Below, in pieces: positions 54,031 to 60,534 of a stretch of DNA of 64,000 nt. This DNA is from Streptomyces sp. ICBB 8177 (GTDB lineage: Bacteria; Actinomycetota; Actinomycetes; Streptomycetales; Streptomycetaceae): positions 2,075,541-2,139,540 of the forward strand of contig NZ_NSKH01000018.1 of NCBI RefSeq assembly GCF_003144095.1. Direction: 5' to 3'. Below the pieces are notes generated by a model. It was not told the origin of the DNA. It saw nothing but the letters and a program-made list of their open reading frames with translations, and did no database searches. Numbering within the stretch: the first letter of the stretch is position 1; every line of letters begins with the position of its first letter. Made by a program: the position numbers and the translations under genes.

Positions 54031-55290
54031 ATGGGACGCGACGACCGCGTGGGCGGCGGGTCGGGAACGGAGCCGGAGGTCCGGGACATCGGCATGGGCA
54101 TGGCCCCGGAGACCCGGCGCCAGCAGATCGTGAAGCTGTGCTGGACGCTCGTCTACCTGCTCTACATGGCCTACGCGGTCGGCGACCTCGTCTCGGGCGA
54201 CCACACGGTCTGGGCGACCGTGCTGGGGTGGCTGGGCCTCGTCGCGTTCCTCGTCCCGTATCTGTACATGGTCCTCAGCCGCCGCCCGCGCGGTGAGCAC
54301 CTGGCGGCGTGGCAGTGGGCGGTGCTGGGCTGGCTGTACGCCCTGGCGGTGACGCTGTCGCTGACGCTGGGCCAGGCGTGGCTGATGTTCTTCGTCTACG
54401 TGACGATCGGCTCCGGCGTGCTGCTGCCGTTCCGGCTGGCCGCGCGTGCGGTGGTCGCGGTGTCGATGAGCCTGCTGGGCGTGGGGCTGCTGCTGCACGC
54501 CAACGGCTGGCTGCTGACCGGGCTGGTGCTGCCCTCGCTGCTCGGCGGCGGGGCCATGATGGGCGTGTCGCAAATGGGCCGCACCATGCGGGAGTTGCGG
54601 GCCGCACGGGAGACGGTGGCGCATCTGGCGGCCAACGAGGAACGACTGCGGCTGGCCCGCGACCTGCACGACCTGCTCGGCCACTCGCTGTCGTTGATCA
54701 CGCTCAAGAGCGAACTGGCCGGGCGCATGCTGCCGGACAACCCCGAGGAGGCCGCCCGCCAGGTCGCCGACATCGAACGGGTGAGCCGCCAGGCGCTCGT
54801 TGACGTCCGCGAGGCGGTCAGCGGCTTCCGCAGGCCCACGCTCGCGGTCGAACTGGCCGGTGTCCGCACCGCTTTGCACACCGCGGGCGTCGAGGCGCGG
54901 ATCGCCCCCACCCTCCAGCAGCCCGTCGCCGTCGCCCACCCCGGCCTCGGCGCCGAGCAGGAGGGCGCGCTGGCCTGGGCGCTGCGCGAGGCGGCCACCA
55001 ACGTCGTACGGCACAGCGGCGCGAGCGCGTGCGACCTGTCCCTGGACGAGGTGTGGGAGGCGGACGAGACCCGCTACCTGTGCCTGGAGGTCGCCGACGA
55101 CGGCCGGGGCCCGGGCCGCGGTCACCACGCGGGCAACGGCCTGAGCGGCCTGGAGGAGCGCCTCGTGCTGTCCGGCGGCCGACTGGAGACCGGCGCGTCG
55201 CGCCGGGGCGGCTTCACGGTACGGGCGTACGTGCCGTTGCGCGCGGTCCAGGACCGCGAGGGGCCGGAACCCTCCCGCCCGCGGCCTTGA
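54031..55290 (+). CDS. NarL/DesK-type sensor histidine kinase
   Basis: 419-aa membrane kinase. About five TM helices (35-190), a HisKA_3 dimerisation domain with the phospho-acceptor His213 in ARDLHDLLGHSLS, and an HATPase with N-box ALREAATNVVRHSG and G-box GNGLSGLEERL. It follows the ABC-2 exporter closely, a module that normally ends with a LuxR-type response regulator. Here no response regulator follows; the next 600 bases are repeats. It may use a partner encoded elsewhere. Confidence 0.9.
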   Translation: MGRDDRVGGGSGTEPEVRDIGMGMAPETRRQQIVKLCWTLVYLLYMAYAVGDLVSGDHTVWATVLGWLGLVAFLVPYLYMVLSRRPRGEHLAAWQWAVLGWLYALAVTLSLTLGQAWLMFFVYVTIGSGVLLPFRLAARAVVAVSMSLLGVGLLLHANGWLLTGLVLPSLLGGGAMMGVSQMGRTMRELRAARETVAHLAANEERLRLARDLHDLLGHSLSLITLKSELAGRMLPDNPEEAARQVADIERVSRQALVDVREAVSGFRRPTLAVELAGVRTALHTAGVEARIAPTLQQPVAVAHPGLGAEQEGALAWALREAATNVVRHSGASACDLSLDEVWEADETRYLCLEVADDGRGPGRGHHAGNGLSGLEERLVLSGGRLETGASRRGGFTVRAYVPLRAVQDREGPEPSRPRP

Positions 55291-55332
55291 GCGGCAGGCG
55301 CCACGGGCTCAGTGTCCGCTCAGCACGGGCCC

Positions 55333-55734
55333 CGTTCGGGCGGAGTGCCGCGTCTGCGCCGCTGCGTGGCTTGAGGGGCAGGAGGGCGGCGGGGGGCGCT
55401 GTGCGCCCGGCCTGACCGGGGTCGCGGGTTCCTGGTCTGCCGATTAGTTGTCACGCCGTTGTCAGTGACAAGGGTTTCCGTCAACTGTGCCTGCCGAAAA
55501 GCTTGTTACCGGCAACGGGGTGACAACTAATCCGCAGAACACCTGCCGGGCGCGCAGCGCACGGCCCTCAGCGCGGCGCGCAGCGCGGGAGCCACCGCCC
55601 TCCTGCCCCTCAAGCCGCGCAGCGGCGCAGACGTGATACTCCGCAAAAACGAGCAGCCGCGCGGCGGCGCAGCCCTCACACTCCGCCCAAACGGCCGCCG
55701 CGCAGCGGCGCAGACGCGGCACTCCGCCCAGACA
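55333..55734. repeat. Repeat cluster with long inverted and tandem copies
   Basis: A 60-base arm (55333-55392) recurs inverted at 55592-55651 with 52 matches. The right arm is followed by two more degenerate direct copies of its 35-base part (55658-55692, 55698-55734), all sharing GCGGCGCAG and ACTCCGC. No protein is supported in either strand. It resembles the dispersed intergenic repeats of Streptomyces. Confidence 0.75.
55436..55538. repeat. Inner inverted repeat, MITE-like
   Basis: Arms 55443-55472 and 55502-55531 match at 26 of 30 positions when inverted (ATTAGTTGTCAC at the outer ends) and can be extended to 37 bases each. The spacer is 29 bases. Nested within the larger inverted repeat. 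Could be a miniature transposable element, a recombination site or a strong RNA hairpin. Confidence 0.6.
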
Positions 55735-55903
55735 GGCCGGCACCCGCGCCAGGCGGCCCGTCGAACGAACCCCCTCCGGAGCGAAGTAGCCTCCAGATCA
55801 GGGGAGTTGGGCTTACGCTCAAGGCAGTCGACGAGCCGGGAAGTGCGCGTCCCCATGTCCCGGCCCAGCGCGACCATGCCCCGCGTCGAAAGGGGAAGAG
55901 GCC

Positions 55904-56160: not shown

Positions 56161-56270
56161 GCAGGACACGCAGAAGATCGCGTGCCGTTCCGGGAGGCGC
56201 TCCACCCGCGTCCACGAGCGTGATCGCCGCTGCTTCGCGGGCCCTCGGGGGCCGGCGGCCGCCCGTGGCG

Positions 56271-56669
56271 TCAGCGTGCGAACTTCGCGATGGCCTCCGG
56301 GGTGACGGGGGTGAAGAAGTTGACGAGGTTGCCGTCGGGATCACGGAGCAGCAGCGACCGGTTGCCCCACGGCATCGTGGTGGGCCCGGCGACGAAGTCG
56401 GTGACGAAGCCGGTCAGGTCCTGGTGGACGCGGTCCACGTCGTCGACGAGGAACTCGGTGATCACGCTGTGGTTGTCCGCCGGGCGGGCGGAGCCCGGGG
56501 CGAACAGCGGGACGGTGCCGGTGCCGGCGATCGCGAGGGTGGCGCCCGCGGTGGCGAGTTCGGCGAACTCCTCGGTGGCCCACGTCGCCCGCGCGCCCGT
56601 GGCCCGCTCGTAGAACGCGACGAGGCGCGCCACGTCACCGGTGATGATGCGGATCGAGACGAACTCCAT
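56271..56669 (-). CDS. VOC (glyoxalase/bleomycin-resistance fold) protein
   Basis: 132-aa vicinal-oxygen-chelate protein. Starts MEFVSIRIITGDVARLVAFYERAT and ends with LLLRDPDGNLVNFFTPV, containing the usual Asp-Pro-Asp-Gly-Asn metal-side strand. AAGGAG precedes the ATG. Divergent from a WYL regulator, which may control it. Substrate unknown. Confidence 0.9.
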   Translation of the reverse strand: MEFVSIRIITGDVARLVAFYERATGARATWATEEFAELATAGATLAIAGTGTVPLFAPGSARPADNHSVITEFLVDDVDRVHQDLTGFVTDFVAGPTTMPWGNRSLLLRDPDGNLVNFFTPVTPEAIAKFAR

Positions 56670-56771
56670 GGGGATCACTCCTTGGCTGTGCTGAAGGCCT
56701 GCGACGTCGGCCTGTGCCTCGCAGCCTAGGAGGAATAGGGGACAGAACCCGCCCTGTATTCGCGTAGGCTT

Positions 56772-57773
56772 GTGCACGTGCCCCGACCCACCGCCCGCGT
56801 GCTGACTCTGCTGGAACTGCTCCAGTCCGGTGGCACCCGGACGGTGGCCGAACTGGCCGACCGGCTCGGCGTCGACGGGCGCACCGTGCGCCGGTACGTG
56901 GACCAGCTGCTCGACCTGGACGTGCCGGTGGAATCGGTGCGTGGCCGCTACGGCGGGTACCGGCTCGCCCCCGGGTACCGCCTGCCGCCGCTCATGCTCA
57001 GCGACGACGAGGCACTGGCCGTGCTGCTCGGCCTGGTCGCCGGCCGCCGGGCAGGGCTGACGACGGCGCAGCACACGGCGAACGAGACGGCGTCGGCGAA
57101 GATCCGGCGGGTACTGCCCAAGCACACGGCCCACCGGCTCGACACCCTCCTGGAGTCCCTGGCCTTCACCGAACGGCCCGGGCGGTCCGACACCCCGGAC
57201 GCGGGGGTCCTGCTCACCGTCGCCGACGCGGTGCGCCACCGCCGACCGGTCTCGATCCGCTACACCGACCGCGACGGACGCCGCAGCGAACGCACGCTGC
57301 ACGCGTACGGGATCGTCGCGCACGCGGGCCGGTGGTACGTCACGGGCGAGGACCCCCGGATCGGCGAGGACCGGACCTTCCGGCTCGACCGCGTCGCGGA
57401 CGCGCGGACGCTGCCCGGCTCGTTCGAAGCGCCGCCGGTGGACACCGATCCGGCACAGCGCGTGGTGTCGGGGTTCGCCACGGCCGAGTACCGGCACGAG
57501 GTGACCTTGCGGGTCCACGGGACGGTCGAGCGGATCCGCGCCCATCTCCCGCCGAGCATCGGGGAGTTGGAGGACCTCGATCCCGCGGCGGGCCAGGACG
57601 ACCCGGCGGCCGAGCGCTGGTGGCGCGTCGAGCTGCGGGCGGAACGGCTCGACTGGCTGCCTCCGCTGCTCGCCGCACTCGACCGGCCGTTCGTCATCGA
57701 GCGCCCCGACGAACTCCGCGCCCTCGTCACGGCCCTCGCCGACCGCCTCGCCTCGCACGCCCGCCGGACCTGA
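56772..57773 (+). CDS. WYL-domain transcriptional regulator
   Basis: 333 aa: DeoR-like winged helix (about 5-60, RTVAELADRLGVDGRTVRRYV) followed by a WYL domain (about 145-215; here GRWYVTGEDPRIGEDRTFRLDR) and the WCX C-terminal part. The start codon (GTG at 56772, or 56778) lies only a few bases after TAGGCT, so the mRNA is perhaps leaderless. Divergent from the VOC gene over about 100 bases; probably regulates it. Confidence 0.9.
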   Translation: MHVPRPTARVLTLLELLQSGGTRTVAELADRLGVDGRTVRRYVDQLLDLDVPVESVRGRYGGYRLAPGYRLPPLMLSDDEALAVLLGLVAGRRAGLTTAQHTANETASAKIRRVLPKHTAHRLDTLLESLAFTERPGRSDTPDAGVLLTVADAVRHRRPVSIRYTDRDGRRSERTLHAYGIVAHAGRWYVTGEDPRIGEDRTFRLDRVADARTLPGSFEAPPVDTDPAQRVVSGFATAEYRHEVTLRVHGTVERIRAHLPPSIGELEDLDPAAGQDDPAAERWWRVELRAERLDWLPPLLAALDRPFVIERPDELRALVTALADRLASHARRT

Positions 57774-57867
57774 CCGCGAGGAGCCCCACGCAGAGGGACA
57801 TCCGCCCGGTTCCGCCGGCGGCGAACCCAGGCCCGACCGGGCTCGTCGATCCCTAGAGTCCCGTCTC

Positions 57868-59180: not shown

Positions 59181-59381
59181 TCATCGCAGCTCCCCGGTCT
59201 TGACGCTGTTCACGAACGCGGCGAAGGCGGCCACGGGGAAGGTGAGGACCGGTCCCTCCGGGTCCTTGGAGTCACGTACGGGCACGATGCCGTGGGCGGC
59301 AAGCAGGTCGGTGGCTACCTCGATGCACGCGCCGCCGTTGTCGCTGTACGTGGACTTGGACCAGCGAAGGGACTCGGTCAT
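59181..59381 (-). CDS. DUF397 protein, second copy
   Basis: 66-aa DUF397 protein (LRWSKSTYSDNGGACIEVAT, then PVRDSKDPEGPVLTFPVAAF). In Streptomyces these small proteins sit next to WhiJ-like XRE regulators and are thought to counteract them, as with AbaA/WhiJ pairs. ATG after AAAGGA. About 60% identical to the preceding copy, so a recent tandem duplicate. Confidence 0.88.
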   Translation of the reverse strand: MTESLRWSKSTYSDNGGACIEVATDLLAAHGIVPVRDSKDPEGPVLTFPVAAFAAFVNSVKTGELR

Positions 59382-59395
59382 CGCGGGGGGTCCTT

Positions 59396-59605
59396 TCACA
59401 CGGCGCCGAACTCTCCGGCCTTGACGCCTTCCACGAAAGCGGAGAAGGCGTCGGCCGGGAAGGAGAGAACCGGCCCGTTCGGGTCCTTGGAGTCACGGAC
59501 AGGAACGATGCCGTGCGCTCCGCTGAGGTTGGCGGCCACCTCGACACACTGGCCGCCGTTGCCGCTGTACGAGGACTTGAACCAGCGGAGGGATTCGGTC
59601 GTCAC
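59396..59605 (-). CDS. DUF397 protein, first copy
   Basis: 69-aa DUF397 protein (LRWFKSSYSGNGGQCVEVAA, PVRDSKDPNGPVLSFPADAF). GTG start overlaps the XRE stop by four bases, ensuring coupled synthesis with its probable partner regulator. Followed 14 bases later by the second copy. Confidence 0.9.
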   Translation of the reverse strand: MTTESLRWFKSSYSGNGGQCVEVAANLSGAHGIVPVRDSKDPNGPVLSFPADAFSAFVEGVKAGEFGAV

Positions 59606-60429
59606 GGGGTGCCCTTTCGCAACTGGTTGATCATGGCGACAGATTCCGCTTGCGAGAGCGCCTCTGCCTGTAGCTGATGGTAGGCCGCCAGGAGGTGCAC
59701 CACGAACGTACTTTCCCGCTCCAGATGGCCACGATGGGTGGACTCGGCGTACGACATGAGCGATCGGTCCGGCATCGTGAGGATCGTGATGGGCAAGCTG
59801 AACGGTCTGCGCGCCCCCATAGAGAACGGCGCTACCTGGAGCACGGTGTTCGGCATCTCCGCGAAATCGAGCAGTCGGGCGAACTGGGCGTCCATAACGG
59901 CAGAGGTGCCCATCGACCGTCGGATGCACCCTTCGTCAAGCACCGTGAGGATCAGAGGTGAGGGTGATCGCAGAAGGCTGGCCTGTCGTTGTGCCGCCAG
60001 CTCGACTCGCTCCTCGGCCTGCTCGGGTGTGATCGCCTCCCTTCGCACTGCGTCCGCCTCCAACGCGGCGGCGTACTCCGCAGTTTGGAGCAATCCAGGT
60101 ATGACGCCCACTTCGTACAGACGGACCTCTGCCGCCCTTGCCTCATGGGCCACGTACTCCGGGAACCCTTCGATGAGCGCCGTGTGCCGCGCCGCCCGAC
60201 TCTGACGCTCGAACCTGTCGCCTGTCCCGAATGCCTTGTCAACGCTTGCTGCAAAACGACGAGTTGGTGGGCGGCGACCAGTTTCCACAGCCGAAACATG
60301 GGTGCCAGTACATCCGATACGAGCAGCCAGCTCCTCCTGCGTCCAGCCGCGCTCGTCCCGTAACGTGCGAAGACGCTGCCCGAATCGTGCACTCGGCGAT
60401 TGCTCTGGATCCAGCTCTTTGCGGTTCAA
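59602..60429 (-). CDS. XRE regulator with DUF5753 domain, WhiJ-like
   Basis: 275 aa: N-terminal helix-turn-helix (about 15-70, WTQEELAARIGCTGTHVSAVE) and a DUF5753 domain (about 90-270, containing VIPGLLQTAEYA and FSMGARRPFSLPITIL). I chose the TTG at 60429 (NRKELDPEQSPSARFG, the usual family N terminus, with AGGTG upstream); a GTG 17 codons earlier is the alternative. Divergent from two small genes. Such regulators belong to developmental and antibiotic-control families. Confidence 0.88.
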   Translation of the reverse strand: MNRKELDPEQSPSARFGQRLRTLRDERGWTQEELAARIGCTGTHVSAVETGRRPPTRRFAASVDKAFGTGDRFERQSRAARHTALIEGFPEYVAHEARAAEVRLYEVGVIPGLLQTAEYAAALEADAVRREAITPEQAEERVELAAQRQASLLRSPSPLILTVLDEGCIRRSMGTSAVMDAQFARLLDFAEMPNTVLQVAPFSMGARRPFSLPITILTMPDRSLMSYAESTHRGHLERESTFVVHLLAAYHQLQAEALSQAESVAMINQLRKGTP

Positions 60430-60534
60430 GGCACCTGACCAACTCTCTGAACAAATACCGCAAGTTGAAGACGTTCCCACTCTAGGTCACGCTGAACTCG
60501 CTTGGTAGTGGAATGGCTACGGAGAGGAGTGGTC

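Follow-up and report, generated by a model that had tools for sequence, protein, structure and literature searches.

The window, i.e. the whole stretch of 64,000 nucleotides that was analysed (G000:C11:2075541-2139540), belongs to the 6.3-Mb draft genome (27 contigs) of Streptomyces sp. ICBB 8177 (G000), which shares its genus with Streptantibioticus parmotrematis Ptm05 (G001, referred to as the congener; L-numbers denote individual loci). A nested palindrome is located at positions 55331-55736, between the end of a histidine-kinase gene (55290; HisKA_3) and a small downstream reading frame. The kinase gene (54031-55290, assigned by domain search) follows apparent ABC transporter genes, as judged by eye; no response-regulator gene was seen by eye directly after it, nor in the congener stretch.

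Architecture of the nested palindrome

The inner palindrome (core module; 55433-55541), which occurs elsewhere also on its own, was recognized both as an inverted repeat and by the covariance model R1 of the core. According to the repeat search, its arms comprise 46 nt each (55433-55478 and 55496-55541) and are 83% complementary; the R1 match spans G000:C11:2130978-2131074 (E 2.5e-23; this copy is among the 23 from which R1 was built). On the plus strand, the left outer arm (55333-55411) pairs with the right outer arm (55573-55651) as an inverted repeat of 79 nt with 80% complementarity. In addition, the outer arm's leftmost unit (GGGCGGAGTG..CGTCTGCGCCGCTGCG; 55331-55370, plus strand) is the inverted partner of 55697-55736 (40 nt, 90% complementary), and this second outer pairing places the right end of the element at the third member of a tandem family of plus-strand units: unit 1, with the mini-hairpin GCCGC-GCA-GCGGC (55614-55654; one mismatch to the unit pattern), the degenerate unit 2 (55656-55695; three mismatches), and unit 3, the best partner of the left end (55697-55736; two mismatches). 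The unit starts at 55614, 55656 and 55697 are spaced by 42 and 41 nt, and the second and third units are 68% and 76% identical to the first. The 60-base inverted arm described by the sequence-only reading is thus real and contained in the 79-nt outer arm; its inner inverted repeat and its degenerate right-hand copies, which belong to this tandem family, were likewise recovered.

The palindrome reached a score of 38 by gapless extension versus 17 for the best inverted repeat in positions 1-55199 of the window (the part after 55900 was left out of the scoring) and for no inverted repeat did the score rise above 17 when the entire window was resampled 20 times with a first-order Markov model.

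Copies in two species and their surroundings

With R1, applied to both strands, the core was detected 14 times in G000 and 16 times in G001, always at E <= 3e-9 (next match E 0.019); 60 of the 64 listed matches correspond to these 30 places, the remaining four being weak. The outer-unit pattern was present at 17 places in G000 and 25 in G001 (<=3 mismatches) and the half-site pattern gave 30 and 35 matches, respectively, with none for the reversed-pattern control of either. The earlier proposal of a dispersed repeat family is supported by the core and outer-unit counts, single-copy arms are excluded since arms and core are multi-copy in both genomes, and the regulatory role suggested alongside is plausible. 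At least one outer arm accompanies the core in 18 of the 30 places (8 in G000, 10 in G001), whereas 12 cores (6 and 6) are armless; some arm-bearing copies are incomplete (L028 keeps one arm). As the outer-arm arrangement is constant among these 18 copies, the composite either spread by copying as a single unit or arose once as such, and a successive insertion of small mobile elements at the window site finds no support in the form proposed. The occurrence of the inner module alone at 12 of 30 places, including the congener's matching site, demonstrates that the modules are separable. The composite is a dispersed unit and does not represent insertions nested at this site alone.

In a search of 41 genomes (16 candidates scored per genome), G000 had 35 matches and G001 had 38; those in the other genomes were weak (best E 1.4e-5), and a match at E <= 0.001 occurred in 22 of the 41 genomes. 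Among 394 genomes of the taxonomic family (10 candidates scored per genome), three contained the core: the two congeners and G022, a member of another genus, at two places. The latter (L078, L080) are diverged cores, one of which sits between convergent genes resembling, by eye, glycosyltransferase and acyl-CoA synthetase genes. The exact dyad pattern retrieved six stretches from a genome contig collection of 84,980 species, all from Streptantibioticus parmotrematis Ptm05, in a scan that requires the exact pattern and a collection that may omit the window's own genome. Only two of the genomes searched carry the family in number. A phage origin was rejected for lack of dyad and outer-unit matches in viral contigs (the half-site pattern alone gave 10 matches there), and a plasmid origin for lack of any match of the element in 72,556 plasmid records. 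The spread of copies within G000 is uneven: C11 has a stretch from about 0.32 to 1.73 Mb in which no copy was detected, and on C17 (1.3 Mb) only one place, at 25 kb, has a copy.

Based on flanking DNA, 11 locus pairs are orthologous between G000 and G001 (L085/L090 by one side only): five composite, three solo, one half-copy (L030/L045) and two in which G000 keeps one unit only and G001 the full copy (L031/L035, L032/L041). A core is present at the matching G001 position for nine of the 14 G000 cores; for L023, L024, L046, L047 and L083 none was found at the matching place. The family has positions shared by both species; it probably spread before their split. At the site corresponding to the window element, the kinase gene recurs in the congener with an armless core after it (R1 match G001:C12:435247-435343), and the right flank differs. 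A chromosomal inversion breakpoint at the element, considered because of the split congener flanks, was dropped: a 1.5-kb block is inverted elsewhere and the left flank keeps its orientation. This block, which lies right of the element (window 56256-57785; L042:1305-2833; L046:1-958), is inverted in the congener at about 120 kb from the kinase gene, with cores or DUF397-like genes near several of its junctions. The reading frames at window positions 59181-60480 seem to encode DUF397 proteins as well as an XRE-type regulator; DNA like that of this region is also present near the cores L043 and L046 and, by eye, L036.

The copies are situated between tandem, divergent and convergent genes alike (genes predicted by codon-position GC). 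The genes near them are unrelated to each other and include those for the kinase, an FtsX permease, a UvrB-domain protein, arabinofuranosidase, a beta-lactamase fold protein, an MFS protein, MurB, Ppx/GppA, enoyl-CoA hydratase, a GGDEF protein, a LuxR protein and aldo-keto reductase. At three places, both species have retained half copies. In L103/L104 (L103:2803, L104:3128), a half core with an identical 56-nt run in both species lies near the start of a MarR-GNAT gene; over the 74 nt compared, the two loci are less alike outside this run, and the reading-frame starts differ between the two genomes. The half or mini copies L103, L105, L107 and L108 neighbour MarR-GNAT, LacI, oxidoreductase, amidohydrolase and sigma-factor genes as well as STAS, Rsm22, ribosomal S14, methyltransferase and ABC genes. 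The assumption of an operator for its own regulator was rejected, as these four loci have no common partner gene.

A unit of about 41 nt (GCGGAGTGTNACGTCTGCGCCGCTGCGCGGC plus a short link), together with further short hairpins, makes up the outer arms. CGTC stands beside the GC hairpin in 35 of 42 units, the search pattern itself having contained CGTC. In 17 element spans, 121 perfect triloop hairpins were counted, and the loop is of the GNA type in 84 of them (GCA 69, GAA 10, GGA 4, GTA 1), with several different stems; in window positions 1-54000, GCA closes nine and GGA 14 of 349 triloops, with GAA and GTA absent from the 20 classes listed. Because the copies are related, the loop counts are not independent and serve as a description rather than a test. 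The abundance of such loops, together with the GCA loops described for Streptomyces telomeres in the passages drawn on here (PMC4513846, PMC7205883), would suit an element of DNA structure, the arms of which form single-stranded GNA-loop hairpins for replication, recombination or chromosome organization in the fashion of telomere palindromes. This reading is highly improbable in our estimation, considering that the copies are internal and intergenic, that 12 of the 30 cores are armless, that the loop counts come from related copies, and that the plasmid records contain no match.

Putative core half-sites, inversion and sequence sharing between copies

Each arm of the core follows the consensus A-N4-TTGTCAC-NN-C-N-TTG(T/C)C-NNN-G(A/G)CAA. 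In the window, the left array (55448-55471, plus strand) consists of TTG at 55448-55450, TTG 11 nt further on at 55459-55461 and CAA at 55469-55471, and matches TTGTCACNNCNTTGYCNNNGRCAA exactly (G000:C11:2130988-2131011). The mirrored right array (55503-55526, minus strand; one mismatch to the pattern, G000:C11:2131043-2131066) reads on the plus strand TTG at 55503-55505, CAA at 55513-55515 and CAA at 55524-55526. The 11-nt distance of the TTG starts is mirrored in both arms, and the TTG/CAA columns are near-invariant while the rest of the core varies.

Across the tree of 30 copies, 18 of the 60 stem columns were unchanged, compared with a mean of 4.1 and a maximum of 11 in 5000 uniform placements; the change counts at mirrored stem columns correlate at 0.88. 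The alignment of the 30 cores, its pair count and the change-count tree hold L087 in the wrong orientation; for the flip and held-out tests, the orientation of the L084/L087 comparison was corrected. A first, circular version of the column test yielded 2/144 versus 50/333 substitutions. To escape this circularity, the held-out version used columns without variation among 14 copies that do not belong to the tested pairs, and scored them in eight ortholog pairs: substitutions amounted to 8/200 at these columns versus 44/277 at the other stem columns (Fisher p 2.2e-5). This test is not fully independent, as close relatives of the tested rows are among the training rows, and differences at variable columns may be exaggerated by conversion from variable donors; in our opinion, relatedness and gene conversion weaken the conclusion of a column constraint but do not remove it.

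The slow columns at fixed positions bear directly on the interpretation of the family as a decaying non-autonomous transposon of MITE-like type, in which the half-sites would be transposase-binding terminal repeats, conserved owing to the descent of all copies from recently active sources, and would have no host function. The terminal-inverted-repeat form, the dispersed intergenic copies beside unrelated genes, the existence of both solo and composite versions and a near-identical pair at unrelated places (L023/L024) would all agree with such an origin. However, the held-out result is at variance with it, as is the core shared with the matching congener position by nine of the 14 G000 cores. 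Furthermore, a Y1/RAYT (IS200-like) transposase (PF01797) was absent from both family-carrying genomes, with five of 14 control genomes positive, and no transposase was detected among the 30 proteins near copies in a Pfam scan in which 28 had a match (the half-site pattern having been sought in the two draft genomes). A full-length transposon, a clean empty site and a target-site duplication, sought at the copies and nearby genes in pursuit of the mobile-element idea, were not found there: the near-empty site L088/L091 (only L088 matched, among nine loci) differs over a longer stretch, is not clean and has no duplication. In sum, a MITE-like origin is unlikely, though it is the alternative to be taken most seriously.

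Base pairing was assessed in the same 30 aligned cores, in which 87.4% of 890 stem cells were paired; shuffles gave 82.6%, with none of 500 reaching the observed value, and slid controls 32-56%. Three of five measures, namely the percentage paired, the covariation score and the number of cells with changes on both sides, exceeded all 500 shuffles; the numbers of covarying pairs (13 versus 11.8 in shuffles, 135/500 as high) and of pair types (34 versus 33.9, 290/500 as high) did not, and covariation is consequently weak evidence here. Double changes in the seven correctly oriented ortholog pairs kept pairing in five cases and broke it in two; single changes broke a stem pair in 20 cases and kept it in 16, from which it follows that base pairing as such is not under strong protection. 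A transcribed hairpin that serves as a terminator, an mRNA stabilizer or a processing site could account for the very stable predicted single-strand fold (z = -12.7 on the plus and -11.6 on the minus strand), the percentage of paired stem cells and the position of several copies just downstream of genes. We consider it improbable: the copies lie between tandem, divergent and convergent predicted genes alike, the counts of covarying pairs and pair types stay within the shuffles, the two terminator-like sites of the window copy lie on the minus strand (shuffled mean 0.6, sd 0.9), and what is conserved is a set of specific bases in a half-site arrangement rather than pairing alone. No Rfam family was recognized either: the window had no match above the gathering cut-off and a further search gave one match at chance level (E 0.31), and a known Rfam RNA was rejected.

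The TTG/CAA triplets are read as half-sites for a putative protein because they hardly change while the rest of the core does. With moderate confidence, the element is regarded as a member of a composite palindromic intergenic repeat family of the Streptantibioticus lineage, the core half-sites of which are the putative target of a dimeric DNA-binding protein. The core of about 95 nt is a dyad with three putative TTGTC-type half-sites in each arm: two direct ones, with TTG starts separated by about one DNA turn, and an inverted one, with which the second direct half-site also forms TTGTC-N3-GRCAA. A putative dimeric protein would most likely recognize these half-sites, and selection would maintain the binding; the half copies at matching places in both species, above all L103/L104, fit such a half-site array. 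In the 18 arm-bearing copies, this core is accompanied by arms that consist of 41-nt units and of short GC hairpins whose triloops are of the GNA type. Any function of the element is here inferred.

Inversion of the core was observed once: in L028/L037, the core is flipped relative to its flanks, with 79/90 positions identical in the flipped versus 70/96 in the flank-consistent orientation, while the remaining seven of the eight ortholog pairs are unflipped. Sequence sharing between copies was demonstrated for one G000 pair and is not family-wide. L026 and L027, both from G000, form a supported branch (100/99), and the clades L026/L038 and L027/L039 expected from their positions were rejected (p-AU 4.5e-5 and 3.9e-7); the flanking DNA of these loci is 95.5 and 97.6% identical between the species. 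Counted with gaps, identity amounts to 89.0% for L026/L027, 73.6% for L026/L038 and 73.4% for L027/L039; when gaps are ignored, the three values lie close together (91.2%, 89.8% and 89.3%). Of the other ortholog pairs, the clade L022/L034 was rejected at p 0.023, L025/L033 was not rejected (p 0.067) and L028/L037 do group. Genome labels were unclustered on the tree, with five changes compared with 6.1-6.2 on average after shuffling; 133 and 119 of 500 shuffles gave an equally low count. L023:1358-1769 and L024:1550-1960 are 92.8% identical over 414 nt at unrelated places, with similarity extending beyond the unit ends and extra units in L024; this near-identity could reflect recent mobility. 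In yeast data, arm homogenization and spacer inversion are described as results of template switching between imperfect inverted repeats (PMC8604942). The core flip and the remnants may have been caused by such switching and by deletion within the palindrome, and the sequence sharing by gene conversion between copies.

Small intergenic repeats are usually classed as transposon debris. Here, the same positions are traceable in two species, and the mirrored, helically spaced triplets are spared from change; this suggests that protein binding is maintained at many unrelated genes. A far-reaching extension, doubtful and clearly more speculative than the binding itself, would be a lineage-specific system for chromosome organization or global regulation. 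Each genome would then contain about 15 dyads, every one of them offering six half-sites to the same putative protein and kept by selection beside unrelated genes, the larger copies having arms foldable into telomere-type GNA hairpins, with cores that flip and copies that exchange sequence. If a binding protein were found, it would define a hitherto unrecognized regulon or chromosome-organizing system of this lineage. Apart from this, the family is a natural collection of palindromes in a high-GC actinomycete, from which the inversion of cores, the loss of parts and the exchange between dispersed copies can be read directly.

Comparison with known repeat systems

The family resembles MITE, ERIC and BOX-type repeats in being dispersed, intergenic, palindromic, non-coding and modular, and shares with MITEs the terminal inverted repeats; it differs from them in the constraint on mirrored half-sites. 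No target-site duplication was found at the near-empty site compared, and no autonomous partner among the 30 nearby proteins scanned. According to the portions of the pneumococcal survey cited, BOX, RUP and SPRITE elements are nearly confined to one species and its near relatives, as is the case here (PMC3049150).

With the palindromes of Streptomyces telomeres, for which GCA loops with sheared G:A pairs are described in the parts of the reports consulted (PMC4513846, PMC7205883), the family has tandem GC hairpins and GCA-type triloops in common, a likeness based on the published description and not on telomere sequence. In contrast to telomeres, the copies are internal, intergenic and multi-copy with a central dyad; they lie inside contigs between genes, at positions matching in two species, and not at replicon ends.

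Intergenic inverted doublets of a short palindromic unit, remnant-like singlets and a mosaic arrangement, as given for REP/REPIN/BIME in the cited excerpts (PMC3116915; PMC2817692), recur in the family, the outer units of which flank the core in inverted orientation. Three of the four REP/REPIN features tested are nevertheless missing: copy number is usually >100 in REP/REPIN versus 17 and 25 units here, the conserved end tag GTAG occurs in 3/42 units and inside the unit, and mobilization by a RAYT/IS200 enzyme is ruled out by the empty PF01797 search with its working controls. Moreover, the long central dyad with its own conserved half-sites and the composite length of about 400 nt set the family apart. 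CGTC-tagged repeats correspond in the CGTC beside a GC hairpin and, like the family, have no dedicated transposase known; their stem of 8-9 bp and loop of 4-5 nt differ from the 5-6 bp and 3 nt found here, and that study names five phyla for CGTC repeats and nowhere uses the word Actinobacteria (PMC3733652). No description of this palindrome family was recognized in the portions of the open-licence literature covered, from which its absence from print does not follow. Given the REPIN-like plan with three of four features deviating, and a correspondence to the CGTC repeats in the tag only, these elements are best placed among small palindromic intergenic repeats outside these named families.
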